From Armatimonadota bacterium (GTDB taxonomy: Bacteria; Sysuimicrobiota; Sysuimicrobiia; Sysuimicrobiales; Sysuimicrobiaceae): DNA of 64,000 nucleotides. The translations under genes were made by a program, and so were the position numbers. This document shows, piece by piece, positions 8,650 to 18,242 of this stretch; position 1 is the first letter of the stretch; the number at the start of each line of letters is the position of its first letter. The notes under the pieces were generated by a model that made no database searches, was not told the DNA's origin, and saw nothing but the letters and a program-made list of their open reading frames with translations. Location: contig JAVKGX010000009.1 of assembly GCA_031432545.1 (NCBI GenBank), positions 1 to 64,000 on the forward strand. Direction: 5' to 3'.

Positions 8650-10845
8650 ATGCGTCTGACCCTTCGCCAGGTCAACTTACTTCTGCTCGGCGTCGTGGTC
8701 CTAAGTGCTCTGGTCCTGACCTGGGGCACCGTGGAGACGTATCGCCACCTCCCGCCGCTGCCCGAACTCTTCACCACCGGTGACGAAACGGTGCTGTTCA
8801 GGCGCGAAGACATCCGCGCCGGCCAGCGGGTCTTCCAGCGCCGCAACCTAATGGGTTTCGGGACGCTGTTCGGCAACGGCAGCTACTTCAGGCCGGATTT
8901 CGGGGCAGAGTACTTAGCATTCTTGCGGGATCACGTCGCGGATCAGTTCGCCCGAGAACAAGTGGGATGACCGTTCCGCGACCTTTCGCCGGGCGATCCT
9001 CCACATAGCACGAGTGGGCACCAACCAGGTCTCCCTGCCCGACGAGTGGAGCGAGGCGCACCAGGCCTTCGCGGAGTTCTATCATCGGCGCTTCGTGGCG
9101 GGCGATCGGGCGCTGGGGATTGCCCCGGGGACCCTCCAACCCGACGAGGTCCGGCCTCTCGCTGCGTTTGTGGCATGGACGGCGTGGGTATCCTTCACCG
9201 CCCGCCCGGGATCTGACGGCTCGTACACCAACAACTTCCCGCCCATGCCGGATCTCGGTCTGGTCCCCACCGGGCAGACCATCCTGTGGACTGCGTGGTC
9301 CGTGGGATGGTTCCTGCTCCTGGCATTCTTGGTGGTCCTGGCCTTCGGAGCGGTGGATCTGGAACCCATCCCCGTACTTCCGTCCGTCGAGGAGCGGGCG
9401 GAGGGTTCGCCCGGTTTTCTGGCCCGGGTGACGCTGCTGCTGATGGGCGGCTGTTTTTTCATCTTTGCTCCTCCAGACGTTGGCAGGCGGTTATCTTGCG
9501 AACGCCTACGCCTCGCGTGAGGACTTCTACGGGGTGTTCTCGGGGTTGGGCCTCGAGCGCATGGCAGTCCTTCCCTTCCAAGCCGTCCGGTCAGCGCACA
9601 CCGCGATGGCCGTGGTCTGGGTGGTGGGTCTGTGGATGTCCGCAGCCCTGTACGCGGCTCTCCTGTTGGGCGGACGGGAGCGCCCGTGGCACAAGCCGGC
9701 CGCCTACGTGTCCATCGCGATCCTCGCTGTGAGCGTGGTCGGCACGCTGCTGGGTGTGTACGCCAGCGTCCGCGGGTGGGTGGACTCGCCGCTGGTGGGC
9801 AGCGAGGGGACGGAGTACCTGAAGATGGGGCGGCTGTGGCGGGCGGGCATCGCGGCGGGCTTCACCTTGTGGGTGGTGGTCCTCGCCTCTACCCTGAGGG
9901 GCGCTGAGGTGCGCTGGCGGCCACTGTTGCAGGTCCTGCTGTGGAACGGAGCCGGCATCACCGCGGCGCTCTATGCCAGCTTCGCCTACGGCCCGATAGC
10001 CACTGGGTGGTGGTGGACTTCTGGCGGTGGTGGGTGGTCCACCACTGGGTCGAAGGGATTTTCGCCTTTTCCAGATCCTCGTGTTCGGGTGGTTCTTCGC
10101 GGGACTGGGACTGGTAAGCCGCGAGGACGTGACAAAGAGCCTGTACCTGGAAGGCGGCCTGGTCCTCCTCGCGGGCTTTTTGGCCATCGGCCACCACTTC
10201 TGGTGGGTCAGCCAGCCGCCGCTGCGGCTGGGGGTGGGTAGCGTCTTCAGCACCCTGGAGGTGCTCCCGCTGTTCCTCCTGCTGAGCACTGCCCTGCGGG
10301 CGGGTCGCCGTGGCGTACACGTACGTCCCTCGCTTCGTTGGCCGTTGTGGTTCTTCGTGGCCAGTGCCATCTGGCAGTTTTTGGGTTCGGGGATCCTCGG
10401 GCTGCTGATCAACCTCCCCGTGGTGAACTGCTATGAGCACGGCACCTTCCTGACCGTCGCGCACGGCCACGCCTCATTCCTCGGCGCGTTCGGCTTCGTG
10501 GCCGTGGGCATGGGACTCTATGCGGTGCGGCACGCATGTCCCGACGGCTGGAGTGACCGCAGGGTGGCCGCGGCGTTCTGGGCTCTCAATGTGGGGCTGT
10601 TCCTCATGGTCTTTCTTAGCGTGACGCCGCTAGGGGTCATGCAACTCTCCGAGGCGGTACGTGTCGACTATGCGGCGGCCCGCAGCCTGCAGTTCTACCA
10701 GCGGCCCGAGGCACTGCTCCTCAACAAGTTACGGCTTCCAGGCGATGCCCTGATCATCGTCGGGGCGGCAGCCTTGGTCGCTGAGATACTCCCCAAGCTG
10801 CTCCGAATCCTCGACTTGCTCAAGCCGGCTCGAAGGAGCTCCTAG
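8650..10845 (+). pseudogene. Quinol-dependent nitric oxide reductase (qNOR), four frameshifts
   Basis: Read across frames, this is a full-length qNOR (about 730 residues, NorB/NorZ type) that would reduce NO to N2O in the membrane using quinol. It has the extra N-terminal quinol-enzyme segment with YTNNFPP, then the heme-copper-family core: HHWVEG, GHHFWW and HGHASFLG supply the FeB and heme ligands and the FeB glutamate. The frame is broken near 8959 (+1), 9465 (+1), 9992 (-1) and 10063 (-1, in a T run). No stop lies between shifts in the correct frames. Each break is a single base and the rest of the window is intact, so recent decay is likelier than assembly error, though the latter is possible. 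The final frame ends at TAG 10845. Confidence 0.85.
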
Positions 10846-10923
10846 AACCCGTACCTGGAACCGGTACCAGGAACCCGTACCTGGAACCCGTACGTGGTAC
10901 CGGTACCTGGTACCGATACTGGT
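10845..10923. repeat. Tandem array of 13-bp GTACC repeats
   Basis: Five head-to-tail 13-bp units run from 10850 to 10914 (for example CGTACCTGGAACC, GGTACCAGGAACC, GGTACCTGGTACC), with a partial unit on each side. Consensus SGTACCWGGWACC. Units are nearly self-complementary, so the transcript can fold into alternative hairpins. The array begins at the stop codon of the nitric oxide reductase frame and ends just before the promoter of the fluoride locus. Confidence 0.8.
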
Positions 10924-10940
10924 GGCGCACGTCGAACGGA

Positions 10941-10969
10941 TTGACGTCCGCCCTGCGCGGGAGTATGTT
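10941..10969 (+). promoter_or_regulatory. Sigma70 promoter of first fluoride-riboswitch transcript
   Basis: TTGACG (10941-10946), a 17-bp spacer and TATGTT (10964-10969) place the start near 10976, a few bases before the aptamer. Confidence 0.7.
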
Positions 10970-10980
10970 GAACCCGGCAC

Positions 10981-11040
10981 CAAAGGGGCGATGGAGCTCG
11001 CCCTCATATACCCGAGATGCCGGGTTGATAGCTCCTACTG
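10981..11040 (+). promoter_or_regulatory. Fluoride riboswitch (crcB motif), copy 1
   Basis: The aptamer has the conserved GGCGATGG core closed by a GGGCG/CGCCC stem, a second stem ACCCG/CGGGT, then TTGATAGCTCCTAC. The loop GGAGCT (10993-10998) can pair exactly with AGCTCC (11030-11035), the pseudoknot that encloses the Mg2+-fluoride site. In copy 2 the corresponding pair is GGAGCC/GGCTCC, so the helix covaries. The 3' CTCCTAC also forms the left arm of the following terminator, which gives an ON switch when fluoride binds. Confidence 0.93.
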
Positions 11041-11063
11041 GTCGACCAGTAGGGGCTTTTTTA
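11030..11063 (+). terminator. Expression-platform terminator of fluoride riboswitch 1
   Basis: CCTACTGGTCGACCAGTAGG (11034-11053) is a perfect palindrome. The stem extends outward with AGCT/GGCT (one wobble) and is followed by seven T (11057-11063 region). Its left arm overlaps the aptamer CTCCTAC, so ligand binding competes with termination. Confidence 0.9.
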
Positions 11064-11068
11064 TTGGG

Positions 11069-11440
11069 ATGCCGATAGTGACGGTTACCCTCACCGGCGA
11101 GGATCTGGCACAGCTGGCGGAGGCCCTGACGACTCTGGGCTTCTGGCCCGTCGAGTCCGGCCTGGCGTGGTTGATCCGCGAGGGCGCCCGTTATTACGCC
11201 GCCGACCAAGGGGCGTGGCGGGAACTGGTCGCCCGAGAAGTGCCGGATCAGGATCCCCTCCGTCTGGAACTCCAGCGCCGCGAGGTGCTGGCCCACCTGT
11301 TGTCCATGCGGGCTCGCACACTCGGACGGGAGCAGGAGCGCGACGCATTGGCCGACCGGGTGGACGCGCTGGGCGCCGAGTACAGGCGGCTGCGGCAGGC
11401 GCTGTTTGCGCTGCGGGTGCAACGGGTGCATGGAGGCTAG
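11069..11440 (+). CDS. Unrecognised RHH-like/coiled-coil protein, fluoride-regulated
   Basis: 123 residues from the first ATG after the riboswitch terminator; the frame is open upstream but only through the riboswitch and promoter. The N-terminus reads as a beta strand (VTVTLT), a helix (about 10-22) and a second helix (about 29-42), the order of a ribbon-helix-helix fold. From about residue 60 onward there is a long charged helix, probably a coiled coil. The next gene encodes a protein with the same plan, so the two may be diverged duplicates. I do not recognise the family. A DNA-binding or adaptor role is possible but unproven. Position directly behind a fluoride riboswitch ties it to the fluoride response. 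Confidence 0.75.
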   Translation: MPIVTVTLTGEDLAQLAEALTTLGFWPVESGLAWLIREGARYYAADQGAWRELVAREVPDQDPLRLELQRREVLAHLLSMRARTLGREQERDALADRVDALGAEYRRLRQALFALRVQRVHGG

Positions 11441-11446
11441 GCGACC

Positions 11447-11899
11447 ATGGACGAGCGCGACGTGCTGACCACCGTACACATTCCCCTGACCGAAGCGGCG
11501 GTGCAGGAGGTCCGCTCGGTCCTGGAAGCCGAGGGCTGGAACGAGGAAGAGGGCCTGCGCATCCTCCTGGGCTACGGGGCAGCGGTGCGCCTCACGCCAC
11601 CTCCTGACGATCCCCTCCGGGCGCTTGGAGCCGCTCGGGCGGAGCTGGCGACTCTGCGCCACCGCGCGTACCTGGCGGACGAGGCCGTCCGCGGTCTGCG
11701 CATGAACCTGGTGGGGCTGGAGGCTTCCGTCGCGCAGGCACGCCGATCGCTTGCCTATTGGGAACACCGACGGGTAGAGCCGAACCCCCAGGCCGCCGAC
11801 GGCCACCTTTTCCCGGCGCCAACACCCGGCGGCGCCGGCTCGTCCCGGATCCAAGGCTGGATCGGGCGACTTCTGGAAGGTCTGCGGCGTGCGCGCTGA
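11447..11899 (+). CDS. Unrecognised RHH-like/coiled-coil protein, paralogue of preceding gene
   Basis: 150 residues, 6 nt after the previous gene, with GGAG 11 nt before the ATG. The N-terminus repeats the strand-helix-helix pattern (TTVHIPLT, then a helix to EGW, then EEGLRILLGYGAA). A helical segment (about 63-100) follows, then a Pro/Gly-rich linker and a short amphipathic C-terminal helix ending in RRAR. No enzyme motif, signal peptide or membrane segment is visible. It shares the first fluoride riboswitch transcript. The two proteins may form a hetero-oligomer through their helices; this is inference. Confidence 0.75.
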   Translation: MDERDVLTTVHIPLTEAAVQEVRSVLEAEGWNEEEGLRILLGYGAAVRLTPPPDDPLRALGAARAELATLRHRAYLADEAVRGLRMNLVGLEASVAQARRSLAYWEHRRVEPNPQAADGHLFPAPTPGGAGSSRIQGWIGRLLEGLRRAR

Positions 11900-11989
11900 C
11901 GCCATAAGCAAGGTCCGACAGGTGCTGTGGCATCCGTCCGGCGGCTTCACCCCGACCCTGGTACAGTCGGTGAATCGATCCGTCCGGCC

Positions 11990-13171
11990 ATGACGAGATC
12001 GAATCTGCTCCCACCCCACAACGGCACCCGCGCCGCGACGCGGTTCGTGATCCTGATGGGCGTGGTGAGCCTGTTTGCGGATGCCACATACGAGGGCGCA
12101 CGCAGCATCCTCGGGCCCTACCTGCTCGCCCTGGGCGCTTCCGCCACCGGCGTGGGATTCGTATCGGGGTTCGGGGAACTCGTGGGCTACGGTCTGCGCC
12201 TCGTGTCGGGTCGGCTCGCGGATCGAACCCGCCGTTTCTGGGACTTCACCGTCGGGGGCTACGCGCTGAACTTGTTGTCCGTGCCGCTGCTGGCGTTGGT
12301 CGGCCGGTGGGAGGTCGCGGCGCTGCTCGTGGTGGTGGAGCGCGCGGGCAAGGCGATACGGACGCCGCCCCGCGATGCCATGCTGTCGTATGCCGCAAGC
12401 CGGGTGGGCCCGGGATGGGCGTTCGGGCTGCACGAGGCCCTGGATCAGATCGGAGCGGTGGCCGGTCCCCTCATTGCGGCCGCAGTCCTGGCAGCAGGCG
12501 GCGGCCTGCGAGGCGGCTTTGCGGCCCTGGCGGTACCGGCCGTACTCTCCTTGTTGTCGTTGGCCAGGGCCCGTGTCCAGTTCCCGCAGCCCTCTCGAAT
12601 GGAGGATGCTTCCTTCCCGTTGGACCTGCGCCCGCGTCGTGCCCTGGGCCTGTACCTCCTCGCGGCAGGGCTGGTGGCGGCAGGGTTTGCGGACTTCCCG
12701 CTGCTCGCGTACCACTTCACCCGGACGGCCGTCGTCCCGCAGGCTGCCGTCCCCGTTCTATACGCGTTCGCCATGGCCACCGACGCGGTTGCGGCCCTGG
12801 TCGTAGGCCGCTGGTTCGACCGATACGGAACACCGGTGCTGGCCCTGGGGACCGCAGCGACCGCTGCCTTTGCGCCCCTGGCCATCTTCGGCGGACCCAC
12901 AGGGGCGGTCGTGGGTGCAGCCCTGTGGGGTATGGGAGTGGGCCTGCAGGAGTCGGTGCTGCGTGCCGCAGTGGTCGGCATGGTGCCCCCGGACCGGCGC
13001 GGGTCCGCGTTCGGGTTGTTCCAGACGGTGTACGGCGTGGCATGGTTCGCAGGTAGCGCCCTGATGGGCGTCCTCTACGACGCACGCCCGGCCTACCTGG
13101 CGTGGTTTGCGGCGATCACGCAGACTCCCGCAGCCGCCCTGTTCGCCGCAGTGGCGGCTCATCGGAGGTGA
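11990..13171 (+). CDS. MFS transporter in the fluoride-riboswitch-1 unit
   Basis: 393 residues with about 12 hydrophobic segments. The family A motif appears as GRLADRTRR between helices 2 and 3, and as GRWFDRYG in the matching position of the second half. ERAGKAIRTPPRDAML after helix 4 is characteristic of a bacterial MFS subgroup of unknown substrate. The ATG at 11990 sits right before the first helix; upstream codons to 11927 look non-coding. The gene begins 90 nt after the second coiled-coil gene, with no terminator between them, so read-through from the riboswitch transcript is likely. No CrcB/Fluc or CLC-F channel is present in the window, so fluoride or a co-ion is one candidate substrate. 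Confidence 0.8.
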   Translation: MTRSNLLPPHNGTRAATRFVILMGVVSLFADATYEGARSILGPYLLALGASATGVGFVSGFGELVGYGLRLVSGRLADRTRRFWDFTVGGYALNLLSVPLLALVGRWEVAALLVVVERAGKAIRTPPRDAMLSYAASRVGPGWAFGLHEALDQIGAVAGPLIAAAVLAAGGGLRGGFAALAVPAVLSLLSLARARVQFPQPSRMEDASFPLDLRPRRALGLYLLAAGLVAAGFADFPLLAYHFTRTAVVPQAAVPVLYAFAMATDAVAALVVGRWFDRYGTPVLALGTAATAAFAPLAIFGGPTGAVVGAALWGMGVGLQESVLRAAVVGMVPPDRRGSAFGLFQTVYGVAWFAGSALMGVLYDARPAYLAWFAAITQTPAAALFAAVAAHRR

Positions 13172-13264
13172 GCGCCACCGGCAACCGAGCCACACCGCAC
13201 CCGCATCGTCGGACGATCGACCTGATGGCACCCCGCGGGAGTCCGGTCAAACCCGACAAGCACG

Positions 13265-13294
13265 TTGACTTGAGTGTCGGCCGCGCCGGATAAT
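13265..13294 (+). promoter_or_regulatory. Sigma70 promoter of second fluoride-riboswitch transcript
   Basis: TTGACT (13265-13270), an 18-bp spacer and GATAAT (13289-13294), directly before the aptamer. Confidence 0.75.
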
Positions 13295-13297
13295 GGG

Positions 13298-13351
13298 CAC
13301 TGGCGATGGAGCCCGCCTAAACCGCCTCCGAGAGGGGCTGATGGCTCCTAC
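13298..13351 (+). promoter_or_regulatory. Fluoride riboswitch (crcB motif), copy 2
   Basis: CTGGCGATGGAGCC, a CGCC strand closing the first stem, TAAA, a GCCTC/GAGGGGC second stem, then CTGATGGCTCCTAC. This is a close match to the published crcB-motif consensus. GGAGCC pairs with GGCTCC to form the pseudoknot. The loop and stem sequences differ from copy 1 while pairing is kept. The 3' strand is shared with the following terminator. Confidence 0.95.
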
Positions 13352-13380
13352 CCAGGTCGGGTGGGGGCCATTTCGTTTTG
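13343..13380 (+). terminator. Expression-platform terminator of fluoride riboswitch 2
   Basis: GGCTCCTACCC (13343-13353) pairs with GGGTGGGGGCC (13359-13369) through 11 pairs including two G-U, then ATTTCGTTTT. The left arm overlaps the aptamer, as in copy 1. Confidence 0.88.
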
Positions 13381-13410
13381 GCCTCTGCCCCGGTGGTGGA
13401 GGTCAACAGC

Positions 13411-14598
13411 ATGGAGGCGGTCTGGTCGACGGCGGCGCTGTGGATTGTCCTCGCCCTGCTCGCAGCCCTCCTCGGAATCTGGCTGCGGGTATCCGTGGCC
13501 CTCACCGAGATCCTGGTGGCGATCGCAGCCAAGTGGGTGCTGGGTGCTTTCGGCCACGCTTCGTTTCCCGGCGCCCGAGACGGCTGGGTGATCTTCCTGG
13601 CGAGCGCGGGTTCGGTGCTCCTCACCTTCCTCGCAGGCACCGAACTGGACCCCGATGCCTTCCGACGGCGCTGGAAAGAGGCGACCGTGATGGGGCTGGC
13701 CGGATTCCTCGCTCCCTTCCTAGGCGCCGCGTGGGCCGCCCGCCAGCTGCTCGGATGGTCTCCGCAGGCCAGCTGGCTTGCCGGGATGGCCCTCTCGACG
13801 ACCTCTGTGGCGGTTGTGTACGCGGTGCTGCTGGAACTGGGGATCAACCGCACCGAATACGGCAAGGTCGTCCTGACCGCCTGCTTCATCAACGATCTGG
13901 GGACGGTGGTCGCCCTCGGGCTGTTGTTCTCGCCCTTTGGCTTGCGCACCGCGGTGTTCGTGGCTGCTCTCCTGCTCGGACTGTGGGCAGCCGTTCGGAT
14001 CGCCCGTCCCCTGTTGGGCCGCTACGGAGGACGGACCTCGGAAGTGGAGGCGAAGTTCATCTTGGCGGTGCTGTTCGCCCTGGGTGCGGTGGCCGCCTGG
14101 TCGGGGTCCGAGGCCGTCCTCCCGGCCTACGTGTTGGGCATGGCCTTGGCCGGGACAGTGGGGCGCCACGACGAGTTGGTCCGGCGTCTTCGCACACTGA
14201 CCTTCGGGCTTCTGACCCCCTTCTACTTCATCCGCGCCGGACTGCTGGTGCAGCCATCCTCCGTGGCAGGCGGCCTGAGCACGTTCATCGTCCTGTTCGG
14301 CGCCAAGACCTTCAGCAAGTTCGCGGGTGTGTTCCCCCTGACCTTGGCATATCGGTACGCCACGGGCGAGGCGATGTACACCACCCTGCTGATGTCCACG
14401 GGGCTTACTTTCGGCACCATCTCGGCGCTGTACGGCCTCAGCCACGGGATCATTGACCAGAGTCAGTACTCGTTCCTCGTGACGACCGTGGTGGCAAGTG
14501 CGGTGGTGCCGACCTGGGTGGCCGACCGTTTCTTTTTGCCGGCCCACCACACCCGCCCGGCACCTGCGGACCTGGTCCCGGCTGCGGGAGGCGAGTGA
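13411..14598 (+). CDS. CPA-type Na+/H+ (cation/proton) antiporter, fluoride-regulated
   Basis: 395 residues and about 12 membrane segments. The start ATG follows GGAGG by 8 nt; an upstream TTG lies inside the terminator and is rejected. The ion-site helix reads CFINDLGTV, with Asn-Asp where CPA2 exchangers carry the paired carboxylate motif. An earlier GTELDPDAF segment and SSVAG/FGAKTFSKFAG loops fit the KefB/NapA-like family. Na+/H+ antiporters are among the genes reported downstream of fluoride riboswitches. The protein may restore cytoplasmic pH or ion balance after HF entry, or move fluoride itself. Its stop codon overlaps the uspA-like start (TGATG), so the two are coupled. Confidence 0.88.
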   Translation: MEAVWSTAALWIVLALLAALLGIWLRVSVALTEILVAIAAKWVLGAFGHASFPGARDGWVIFLASAGSVLLTFLAGTELDPDAFRRRWKEATVMGLAGFLAPFLGAAWAARQLLGWSPQASWLAGMALSTTSVAVVYAVLLELGINRTEYGKVVLTACFINDLGTVVALGLLFSPFGLRTAVFVAALLLGLWAAVRIARPLLGRYGGRTSEVEAKFILAVLFALGAVAAWSGSEAVLPAYVLGMALAGTVGRHDELVRRLRTLTFGLLTPFYFIRAGLLVQPSSVAGGLSTFIVLFGAKTFSKFAGVFPLTLAYRYATGEAMYTTLLMSTGLTFGTISALYGLSHGIIDQSQYSFLVTTVVASAVVPTWVADRFFLPAHHTRPAPADLVPAAGGE

Positions 14599-15017
14599 TG
14601 TTCCGGCGCGTGCTGGTCGGCTACGACGGCTCTGAGGCTGCCGGCAAGGCGCTGCTGGCGGCCCTCGACCTGGCAGGACGATACCGCGCAGACCTGGTGG
14701 CGGTGGCGGTGGTGCGGCCGCCCGAGTTCGCGGAGCTACAGGGCGAGGTGGATGCGGCGCTCGCTCAGGCTCGCGGCCCACTCGCCGAGTCCTTCCGGTG
14801 GGCCCGGGAACAGGCTCGCAAGGTCGGCGTCCCGTTGACCCTGCGCACCGAGGTGGGACACCCCGCGGAGGTCCTCGTGCGTGTCGCACGAGAGGAGGGG
14901 TTCGACCTCATCGTCCTGGGCCGCCGCGGCCTCACACCGGTGCAGCGGTGGATGCTCGGTTCGGTGTCAGAACGCGTGCTCCGATACGCTCACTGTCCAG
15001 TGATGGTGGTCCACTGA
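14598..15017 (+). CDS. Universal stress protein (UspA family)
   Basis: 139 residues. FRRVLVGYDGSEAAGKAL opens the fold. The ATP-binding signature G-2x-G-9x-G-S is present as GRRG, nine residues, then GS, so an ATP-binding Usp is expected. Start ATG overlaps the antiporter stop, and its own TGA overlaps the next ATG (TGATG at 15015-15019). UspA genes are a recurrent member of fluoride-riboswitch operons. The likely role is a stress modulator of the antiporter or of metabolism; not provable here. Confidence 0.9.
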   Translation: MFRRVLVGYDGSEAAGKALLAALDLAGRYRADLVAVAVVRPPEFAELQGEVDAALAQARGPLAESFRWAREQARKVGVPLTLRTEVGHPAEVLVRVAREEGFDLIVLGRRGLTPVQRWMLGSVSERVLRYAHCPVMVVH

Positions 15018-16549
15018 TGCAAGAGGCATCCATCCTGTTCCCCACACCGCGACCTGCCCCGCTTTGCGAGCGCCCCCCCGCGTGCCTGCGCGATCTGGGG
15101 TTGGACCGCGTCGTGGAATCCGTCGCGGCGGGCCGGGAGGAGTACGGTGTCGAGGCTGTCTTCTACACACCTCTGGCGGAACCCGACGCCGTCGCCTTCC
15201 GCCAGGAGGTCTTCCGCGACTTACAGCACCGCGGAGTGTCGGAGACGGTGCGTGCCTTTGCCTCTGCCATGCGCAGCGTGCGGGCCAACCTCGCTCGTGC
15301 GGATCAGGCGCACTACGCCATCGAGACAGACCGCTGGTTCCTCGACGCAGCACACCGCTACGCCCATGCGGTCGCCGGACTCCTAGACGGCCTGGCTGCC
15401 CTTCGCCTGCAGAGCCGCGGCCTCGCACGCTTCCGCGACCGTCTGGCCGCCTACGCCGCCTCTTTCGGCTTCCGAGACCTCGCGCAGACCTCGGCGCGCC
15501 TGCACGCGGAGCTGTCGGCTTTGCGCTTTGCGGTGCTCGTCCGGGGACTGCGGGTCAGCGTCCGGCCTTACCGGGGAGAGCCGGACTACACGGAGGTGGT
15601 GCGGTCGACGTTCGAGCGGTTCCGCCAAGTCGACAGCGGCTCTTACGCCTTCGAGTTCCGGGAGTCCCCGCAACTCGAAGGCGTCGAGGCGAGAATCCTC
15701 GAAGGCGTTTCGCGTCTGTCCCCGGATCTGTTCGCCCGGGTGGCGGAGTTCCGGCGGGCCTGCGAACCGTTCCCCCCACCTTTGGTGGCGACCTTCGACC
15801 GCGAGGCGCACTTCTACCTCGGCTACCTGGATTACCTGGCTCCGCTCGCGACCGCGGGCCTGCCCTTCTGCTTCCCGGCGCTGCCATCGGACGACGGCGC
15901 GGATGCCTTCGTGGAGGGTTGCTTCGACCTGGAGCTGGCTGCGCAGCTGGCAGCAAACGGTCGCCAGCCGGTTCTCAACGACTTCTCCTTCCGCCCGCCG
16001 GAGCGGGCACTGGTGGTGACCGGTCCGAACCAGGGAGGCAAGACGACGTTCGCGCGCGCAGTGGGTCAGGCTTTCTACCTCGCCTCCCTGGGCTGCCCCA
16101 TACCCGGCCGCCACGCCCAGCTTCCGGTGCCGGACCGGGTCTTCACCCACTTCCCCCGGGGCGAGTCGGTCTACGACCTGCGAGGCGAACTCGAAGACGA
16201 CCTGGTCCGCATCCGCGAGGTCCTGCTGGCGGCGACCTCGAGGAGTGTGGTGATCGTGAACGAGATCCTCTCTTCCACCGCGCTCCAGGACGCGCAGACC
16301 TTGGGCCGACGCCTGCTCGGGCAGCTGTTGGACCTCGACTGCCTGTGCGTGTGGGTGACCTTCCTGGACGAGTTGGCTTCTCTGAACGCGAAGACGGTGA
16401 GCATGGTGGCCACGGTGCCGCCCGATCATCCGGAAAGGCGGACGTTCCGCGTGGTCCGGCGACCAGCGGATGGCCGGGCGTACGCCGAAGCCCTGGCCCG
16501 CAGGTACCGGCTGACATACCGGGACGTGCGCGAGCGGTTCGCCCCATGA
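15017..16549 (+). CDS. MutS-like ATPase, copy 1 (fluoride operon)
   Basis: 510 residues. The C-terminal part is a MutS-family ABC-type ATPase: Walker A GPNQGGKTT (336-344), and a Walker B strand VIVNE (412-416) with Asn in place of the usual Asp, followed by SST. The long helical N-terminal part (about 30-320) corresponds to the MutS core/lever region. The mismatch-recognition domain I with its Phe-x-Glu motif and the connector domain are not seen, so this is not a mismatch-repair MutS. MutS-like genes of unknown role were noted with the crcB motif. The gene overlaps both neighbours and is co-translated with its partner. Confidence 0.85.
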   Translation: MQEASILFPTPRPAPLCERPPACLRDLGLDRVVESVAAGREEYGVEAVFYTPLAEPDAVAFRQEVFRDLQHRGVSETVRAFASAMRSVRANLARADQAHYAIETDRWFLDAAHRYAHAVAGLLDGLAALRLQSRGLARFRDRLAAYAASFGFRDLAQTSARLHAELSALRFAVLVRGLRVSVRPYRGEPDYTEVVRSTFERFRQVDSGSYAFEFRESPQLEGVEARILEGVSRLSPDLFARVAEFRRACEPFPPPLVATFDREAHFYLGYLDYLAPLATAGLPFCFPALPSDDGADAFVEGCFDLELAAQLAANGRQPVLNDFSFRPPERALVVTGPNQGGKTTFARAVGQAFYLASLGCPIPGRHAQLPVPDRVFTHFPRGESVYDLRGELEDDLVRIREVLLAATSRSVVIVNEILSSTALQDAQTLGRRLLGQLLDLDCLCVWVTFLDELASLNAKTVSMVATVPPDHPERRTFRVVRRPADGRAYAEALARRYRLTYRDVRERFAP

Positions 16550-18177
16550 CGCCCCGCCTACTGCACCTCGATCGGGACTTCGACTGGCGTTGGGCCCTGC
16601 GGGCAGCCGCCGCCCGCACCGGTCCGCGCGACGCGCGCCGCTACCCACCTCCAGCGGACTTCGATCCCAACGCCGCACTCCCCCCGACGGCAGCCGACCT
16701 GGTGCGCGACCTTGGGCTCAGGCGGATCCTGGAGGCCATGGCCGCAGACGACCCCTTGGTGTTCGAGGTCGGCCGGAGGGTGCTGTTGGAGGGTACGGGC
16801 GGGGATCTCCGAACCGTGTTGTACCGCCAGGCCGTCCTTGAGGACTGTCTGGGCAACCCGGACGCCGTGCGCGAACTGTACGAGATCAGCGTGCAAGCTG
16901 CCGAGCAGGTGAAAGGCCACTACCTAGGGGTGCTCTCACGCTACCCCGACTGGGTCCTGCGGGAGTCGGTCGCCGCGCTGGAGGCGCTGCTGGGTTCACT
17001 CCGACGCCTGAGGGCGGCCGCGGACAGGCACGCCACCAGGTTCCGGAGCGAGGGCTGGGGGCATTTCTTCGCGGCTGTACGCCGCGACCTCGACGACTCC
17101 TACCTGGACGACGTGCGAGGTCACCTGCAGGCCCTCAAACTGCCCGAGGGCATCCTGTGGAGCGCGCACTCCGGGCCCTCCGGCAAGCCCACCGACTTCC
17201 TGCTGCACCCTCCCCCCAAGGGTCCGAACAACTGGCTCCAAGGCTGGCTGGAGCGGTGGAGGGCGTGGTTCCACCGCCGGGGGGAGGACTATACCTTCGA
17301 GCTTTCTCCCCGGGACGAAGCCGGAGCGAGGGCCCTTGAGGGGTTGCGCGCTCGTGCCCTCGCACCCGCGGCCACCGCCGTTGGGCAGGCCGCCGATCAC
17401 GTCCGGGACTTCTTCTCATCCCTGCGCGTAGAACTCGCCTTCTACGTGGGCTGCCTGAACCTGCACGATCGCCTCCGCGGACGCGGCTACCCCACCTGCC
17501 TGCCGACCGTCCACCCCGCGGGAGAGCCCCGCCTGCGCGCCGTCGCCCTGTACGACCCCGCCCTCGTGCTCTCTGCACAGGGGGCGGTGGTCCCCAGCGA
17601 TTTGGACGCAGACGGCAAACGGTTGGTGTTCGTGACCGGGCCCAACTCGGGGGGCAAGACGACCTTCCTGCGCAGTGTGGGCACCGCCTGGCTGATGGCC
17701 CACGCCGGGATGTTCGTGCCCGCCCACTCCTGCTCCGTCAGCCTGTGCGAGGGGCTGTTCACCCACTTCAAGCGTGAGGAGGACGCGCGCATGGAGACCG
17801 GCAAGTTCGCCGAAGAGCTACAGCGCATGCGCTCCCTCGTGGACCTCGCCACGCCGCGCTCGGTCTTCCTGTGCAACGAGTCCTTCTCCTCGACGAACGA
17901 GCGCGAGGGTTCGGAGATCGCCTCTCAGGTCCTAGCCGCCCTCCTGGAAGCCGGGGTGCGCGTGTTCTTCGTCACCCACTTCTTCGAGCTCGCGCACCGC
18001 TTCCGTGACCGGCAGGACGGCGATGTGCTGTACCTGCGGGCAGAGCGCGACGCCCTGGGCCGACGGACGTACCGGGTGGTGCAGGCCGAGCCGCTGCCCA
18101 CCAGCCACGCCCAGGACGTGTACGAGGGAGTCTTCGAGCCATCCACGGTGACGGCAGCGGGCGGACGGTCCGGCTGA
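16546..18177 (+). CDS. MutS-like ATPase, copy 2 (fluoride operon)
   Basis: 543 residues, starting at an ATG that overlaps the TGA of copy 1 (ATGA). Walker A GPNSGGKTT (365-373), Walker B VFLCNE with Asn for Asp as in copy 1, then SFSSTNEREGSE, which matches the MutS signature region (ST...EG), and FFVTHFFEL as the switch His. Like copy 1 it lacks the mismatch-binding domain and has no C-terminal Smr nuclease as MutS2 would. The two probably form a heterodimer, since MutS ATP sites form across a dimer. Last gene of the operon; the 13-bp repeat array follows. Confidence 0.85.
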   Translation: MTPRLLHLDRDFDWRWALRAAAARTGPRDARRYPPPADFDPNAALPPTAADLVRDLGLRRILEAMAADDPLVFEVGRRVLLEGTGGDLRTVLYRQAVLEDCLGNPDAVRELYEISVQAAEQVKGHYLGVLSRYPDWVLRESVAALEALLGSLRRLRAAADRHATRFRSEGWGHFFAAVRRDLDDSYLDDVRGHLQALKLPEGILWSAHSGPSGKPTDFLLHPPPKGPNNWLQGWLERWRAWFHRRGEDYTFELSPRDEAGARALEGLRARALAPAATAVGQAADHVRDFFSSLRVELAFYVGCLNLHDRLRGRGYPTCLPTVHPAGEPRLRAVALYDPALVLSAQGAVVPSDLDADGKRLVFVTGPNSGGKTTFLRSVGTAWLMAHAGMFVPAHSCSVSLCEGLFTHFKREEDARMETGKFAEELQRMRSLVDLATPRSVFLCNESFSSTNEREGSEIASQVLAALLEAGVRVFFVTHFFELAHRFRDRQDGDVLYLRAERDALGRRTYRVVQAEPLPTSHAQDVYEGVFEPSTVTAAGGRSG

Positions 18178-18200: not shown

Positions 18201-18242
18201 GGTACCTGGTACGGGTTCCTGGTACAGGTTCCTGGTACGGGT
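18201..18242. repeat. Tandem array of 13-bp GTACC repeats, copy behind the MutS-like genes
   Basis: Three head-to-tail units (GGTACCTGGTACG, GGTTCCTGGTACA, GGTTCCTGGTACG) plus GGT. It is the same unit as at 10850-10914. It lies between the convergent MutS-like and pilin genes and touches the pilin stop codon, so it may also serve as a bidirectional terminator. Confidence 0.8.

Follow-up and report, generated by a model that had tools for sequence, protein, structure and literature searches.

Fluoride riboswitches have been described in terms of two mutually exclusive structures, a pseudoknot and a terminator (PMC11077080), and both Na+/H+ antiporters (PMC11139923) and mutS (PMC2864571) are known partners of the class. 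In the switch of B. cereus the J1/3 nucleotides change their reactivity upon fluoride binding (PMC10687018). Here we explore an element of this class, together with the genes that follow it, in the window, by which we mean the whole stretch of 64,000 nucleotides that was analysed. The switch is a variant member, with an altered J1/3, of an RNA class that is already known; new is the protein pair to which it is tightly linked, as yet unstudied and hereafter called P1 and P2, not to be confused with the P1 stem of the aptamer. We consider it very probable that the element is an ON switch with a variant aptamer and that P1 and P2 form a heterodimer acting in fluoride survival with an MFS transporter and a CPA2-type antiporter. 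The coordinates of all features are collected in Table 1.

Table 1. Features of the fluoride module in the window.
Feature	Position	Strand	Basis or remark
13-bp tandem repeat array, dispersed repeat, probably outside the switch	10841..10914	.	Upstream of promoter
Sigma-70-like promoter: -35 TTGACG (10941-10946), spacer of 17 nt, -10 TATGTT (10964-10969)	10941..10969	+	Consensus scan; orthologous leaders by eye
Fluoride aptamer match, RF01734, 35.6 bits	10978..11044	+	Rfam
P1 stem-loop GGCG-AUGGAGCU-CGCC; loop holds pseudoknot 5' strand (10993-10998)	10987..11002	+	
J1/3 linker CTCATAT, without the usual AACC	11003..11009	+	Rfam alignment and leader comparison
P3 stem ACCC...GGGT	11010..11025	+	Rfam and orthologous leaders
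UGAU with equivalents of U38 and A40 (long-range pairs)	11026..11029	+	Homology to PMC8752731, PMC10687018
Pseudoknot 3' strand (11030-11035), terminator hairpin (11030-11057), T run (11057-11062)	11030..11062	+	
P1 gene, 123 aa, uncharacterised; conserved ATG at 11069 just past the T run	11069..11440	+	
P2 gene, 150 aa, uncharacterised paralogue of P1	11447..11899	+	
MFS transporter gene, probably closing the P1-P2 operon	11990..13171	+	
Second fluoride riboswitch, canonical, 55 bits	13293..13357	+	Rfam
Second operon: CPA2-type antiporter (13378), UspA (14595), two MutS_V-domain ATPases (about 15017 and 16546)	13378..18177	+	

A covariance model scan, one of the checks proposed by the first-pass annotation, matched RF01734 with E 3.7e-6 when all families were run against the 64 kb and E 3.0e-8 when this family alone was run against the whole genome. 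The score of 35.6 bits is only 1.6 bits above the cut-off of 34. The central claim of that annotation, an intact fluoride riboswitch with promoter, aptamer and terminator, was borne out, as the curated Rfam threshold is passed and the pairs of P1 stem, P3, pseudoknot and terminator hold in 12 to 15 of 15 orthologous leaders. The promoter it had read shows 9/12 consensus matches; a scan of 10800-13500 returned two such sites against 0.3 in shuffled sequences, the other one preceding the second riboswitch, and a TTGAC-type -35 box was found, by eye, in most orthologous leaders. The consensus scan recovers the promoters and terminators of both riboswitches. Also present are the conserved core GGCGATGG at 10987-10994 and the pseudoknot GGAGCT/AGCTCC, whose six pairs are all Watson-Crick. 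The ligand-cage and long-range-pair letters (GCGAUGG, UGAU and the equivalent of U48) are found as well, their positions being assigned by homology (PMC8752731, PMC10687018).

The terminator requires a correction. The 20-bp palindrome CCTACTGGTCGACCAGTAGG (11034-11053) and the T run behind it are as had been noted, but the left arm of the palindrome is not the 3' strand of the aptamer, with which it shares two bases (CC) only. In the RNA the palindrome is part of a 12-bp hairpin of -20.5 kcal/mol, and it is the outer AGCTCC of the left hairpin arm that coincides with the aptamer 3' strand, an overlap as in transcriptional ON switches. The warning that a gene call from 10922 would hide the element was justified: a GTG open reading frame (10922-11440) reads through it, and the ATG listed in Table 1 is the start retained in the closest relatives. 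Overlooked in the first reading was the missing AACC of J1/3, and the controlled genes were left unnamed there.

RNA polymerase would start near 10976, with the aptamer expected to fold thereafter. When 10976-11036 was folded, the minimum-energy structure contained the six-pair pseudoknot helix; with 10976-11062 the P1 stem and P3 appeared together with the 12-bp terminator, in which the AGCUCC strand of the pseudoknot is used again. Since these folds show the mutually exclusive arrangement described in PMC11077080, they are best read as those of an ON switch, and judging from its sequence the element at 10978-11062 is most likely a transcription-terminating fluoride ON switch. When fluoride is absent, AGCUCC would be displaced from the pseudoknot by the hairpin, and transcription would end at the T run. 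Orthologues of the P1 gene in 14 further genomes are preceded by the same layout, which additionally rules out chance. A strong alternative 9-bp helix, AACCCGGCA (10971-10979) with TGCCGGGTT (11018-11026), was not counted as switching helix since it is lost in the fold from the expected start at 10976. These two segments are perfect complements and could unfold P3 were the start further upstream than predicted.

Thirteen of the leaders of the P1 gene were identified by the Rfam scan, some of them below the gathering score, and two are weaker yet possess motif and terminator. Those of genomes G011 and G029 lie far under the cut-off (22 and 16 bits), several others score 28-33 bits. Each pseudoknot pair is retained in 14 or 15 of the 15. 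Two-sided changes are few, i.e. A-U/G-C/U-A in P3, U-A/C-G at the outer pseudoknot pair and A-U/G-C at the outer terminator pair, and most helix pairs say little either way since they are nearly invariant. The linker sets these leaders apart: AACC occurs in none of the 15 as compared to 24 of the 25 remaining fluoride leaders in the phylum (Fisher p 4e-10, common descent not corrected for). Both types coexist in many genomes, and by sequence comparison we infer that the AACC-less leaders of the P1 gene form one old paralogous lineage, which accounts for the low Rfam score of the element. AACC is the Rfam consensus, frequent yet not universal, and therefore marks a sub-type rather than strictly defining the class; some other leaders also lack it, hence its absence is no ground for exclusion from RF01734. 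Leaders without AACC also precede DUF6062 genes in G036, G088 and G363 and, again in G088, a HEAT/zinc-ribbon gene with a related MFS gene behind it.

The occurrence of the protein pair was counted by profile searches of 43 genomes of the phylum. The P1 gene was found in 15, each homologue 80-260 nt downstream of a fluoride-type leader, and a convincing P2 in 14; three further matches of the P2 profile are weak and partial. P1 adjoins P2 in 14 of the 15 genomes. The exception, G029, combines the lack of P2 with a degenerate leader and a probably truncated P1, as if leader, P1 and P2 had decayed jointly as a unit. Neither protein has a Pfam family above cut-off or an NCBIfam name, and a PHROGs search yielded one weak match of unknown function. 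P1 and P2 are distant paralogues (hhalign E 1.2e-9), and a natural in-frame P1-P2 fusion exists at L067:2452-3312. In its AlphaFold model (pLDDT 87.6, pTM 0.74) two strand-helix-helix units are accompanied by long helices; P2 alone is poorly predicted. The best structural matches of the fusion model are chains of the F-plasmid relaxosome (Z 10.8; 96 residues, drawn from both units, superpose with an rmsd of 2.8). Sequence identity is about 14-15%, the Z is of a size for which caution is advised with helical models, and Foldseek returned no match at E <= 0.001. Judging from the complex, we take these chains (9f0x and related entries) to be TraY, a tandem ribbon-helix-helix (RHH) protein. Given the fusion model and its TraY-like neighbours, P1 and P2 are likely an RHH heterodimer, the fusion being predicted as an intramolecular RHH dimer with coiled-coil arms. 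The remaining structural matches are long-helix look-alikes, the coiled-coil matches of P1 are uninformative, and DARPin/ankyrin matches of the P2 profile among PDB sequences cover a short helical stretch only and are probably due to chance. A literature search combining fluoride riboswitch and ribbon-helix-helix found nothing; neither was a report on P1-P2 or this MFS found in the literature searched, the class's original target-gene tables excepted.

Relatives carry a wider module in which the genes for MFS, CPA2 antiporter, Usp and MutS-like proteins recur in variable order. The 2.19-Mb assembly has two Rfam fluoride matches above cut-off, the ones in Table 1, and no more. A third Rfam-like match (G000:C2:91154, 23.8 bits) lies within a Glu-dehydrogenase-like open reading frame and was hence dismissed as chance. 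Dedicated exporters are scarce: Fluc (PF02537) occurs in three of the 43 genomes only (G000, G002 and G003) and CLC (PF00654) in six. By Pfam search both are absent from 13 of the 15 P1 genomes, and 11 of these 13 reach 90% completeness or more; individual absences could be due to missing contigs. Because of this shared absence the MFS and CPA2 proteins of the module are candidate fluoride-stress transporters. P1 and P2, most likely an RHH heterodimer with coiled-coil arms, would aid fluoride survival alongside them. At about L106 1376-1465 (G000:C1) the leader of the genome's only Fluc/crcB gene resembles a diverged fluoride riboswitch (GGCGACGGAGTCCGCC ... CGACGACTTCTCCTGAC, then TGGGAGCTTGCTTTTTT), for which Rfam reports no match.

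The low Rfam score and the lost J1/3 AACC could also be signs of a decayed riboswitch, with a dead aptamer and a hairpin that remains as constitutive attenuator, all the more since the copy in G029 is clearly degenerate (16 bits) and adjoins a probably truncated P1 gene without P2. Drift, however, would not leave GCGAUGG, UGAU and the strand overlap intact in 14 copies, and pseudoknot, P1 stem and terminator are kept with two-sided changes across 12 genera, which renders decay very improbable. A change in what is bound deserves more consideration. Missing AACC could weaken or abolish fluoride binding, and an affinity shift is plausible because J1/3 nucleotides respond to fluoride in B. cereus (PMC10687018); together with the AACC contrast and the coexistence of both types, this would speak for either a lower fluoride affinity, giving a second threshold at higher concentration, or a ligand other than fluoride, be it a small anion or a Mg complex. 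We hold this to be possible but on balance doubtful, given that the segments kept (GCGAUGG, UGAU and CUCCUAC-type) carry the ligand-cage and linchpin positions of solved aptamers, that the controlled genes belong to the same fluoride module and that, elsewhere, crcB or DUF6062 genes are still found behind leaders without AACC. Unlikely, in our opinion, is the wider proposal that the AACC-less aptamer provides a second, differently tuned response beside the canonical switches, controlling a new RHH/coiled-coil family and an MFS for a resistance independent of Fluc and CLC-F. The aptamer is rather seen as a lineage-specific variant that probably still senses fluoride, with a threshold or strength perhaps unlike that of the canonical switch 2.3 kb downstream.

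On the protein side, P1-P2 might be a DNA-binding RHH regulator that passes the fluoride signal to other genes, as the predicted tandem fold resembles an RHH protein of the relaxosome and the two genes come first in the regulated operon. Inspection by eye nevertheless showed no conserved basic residues on the putative DNA-facing strands, and the P1 strand often exposes acidic residues, unlike a DNA-binding ribbon. Nor do the leaders show a common operator, and the 13-bp motif repeated upstream in this genome is a dispersed one. Such a regulator is a serious possibility, albeit not the one we favour, which is the heterodimer acting with the transporters.

The 13-bp arrays (consensus CCTGGAACCCGTA), at 10841-10914 and 18201-18242, lie on either side of the complete fluoride module and are oppositely oriented. 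About 60 clustered sites genome-wide, against 0 and 4 for the reversed control, identify the motif as a dispersed repeat family, and an operator role was rejected because the motif is scattered through the genome. In two distant lineages (L122, L147 and L152) DUF6062-type proteins, identified by Pfam in L122 and by eye in L147 and L152, are encoded directly 3' of fluoride riboswitches; in L122 and L147 the gene that follows is crcB. The DUF6062 family may take part in the fluoride response. In an unrelated lineage (L123/L153, G088:C8) a fluoride riboswitch is followed by genes for a HEAT/zinc-ribbon protein and for an MFS that is a distant relative of the window's MFS (27.7% identity, E 5.5e-13). 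Since that riboswitch precedes a related MFS, the MFS-riboswitch link crosses phyla.

Riboswitch-linked orphan genes offer a direct route to new fluoride-resistance functions, and the P1-P2 pair is a new lead in this respect. The module genes make fluoride exclusion testable in the 11 genomes, each at least 90% complete, in which Pfam search finds neither Fluc nor CLC, and the aptamers lacking the J1/3 motif are natural variants for probing what J1/3 adds to fluoride sensing.

Compared with its class, RF01734, the element has the same P1 stem, P3, 6-bp pseudoknot, GCGAUGG/UGAU/CUCCUAC signature and terminator overlapping the pseudoknot 3' strand. It differs in lacking the J1/3 AACC and in controlling an unannotated protein pair and an MFS rather than Fluc or CLC-F. 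The second riboswitch shares class, genome and the overlapping terminator with it, whereas its J1/3 is canonical (AAACC) and it controls partners of kinds already described, an antiporter (PMC11139923) and MutS-like proteins (PMC2864571), plus a Usp. The P1-P2 fusion resembles the TraY-type protein of 9f0x in its predicted tandem RHH fold, but has long coiled-coil arms and lacks a conserved basic DNA-reading strand.
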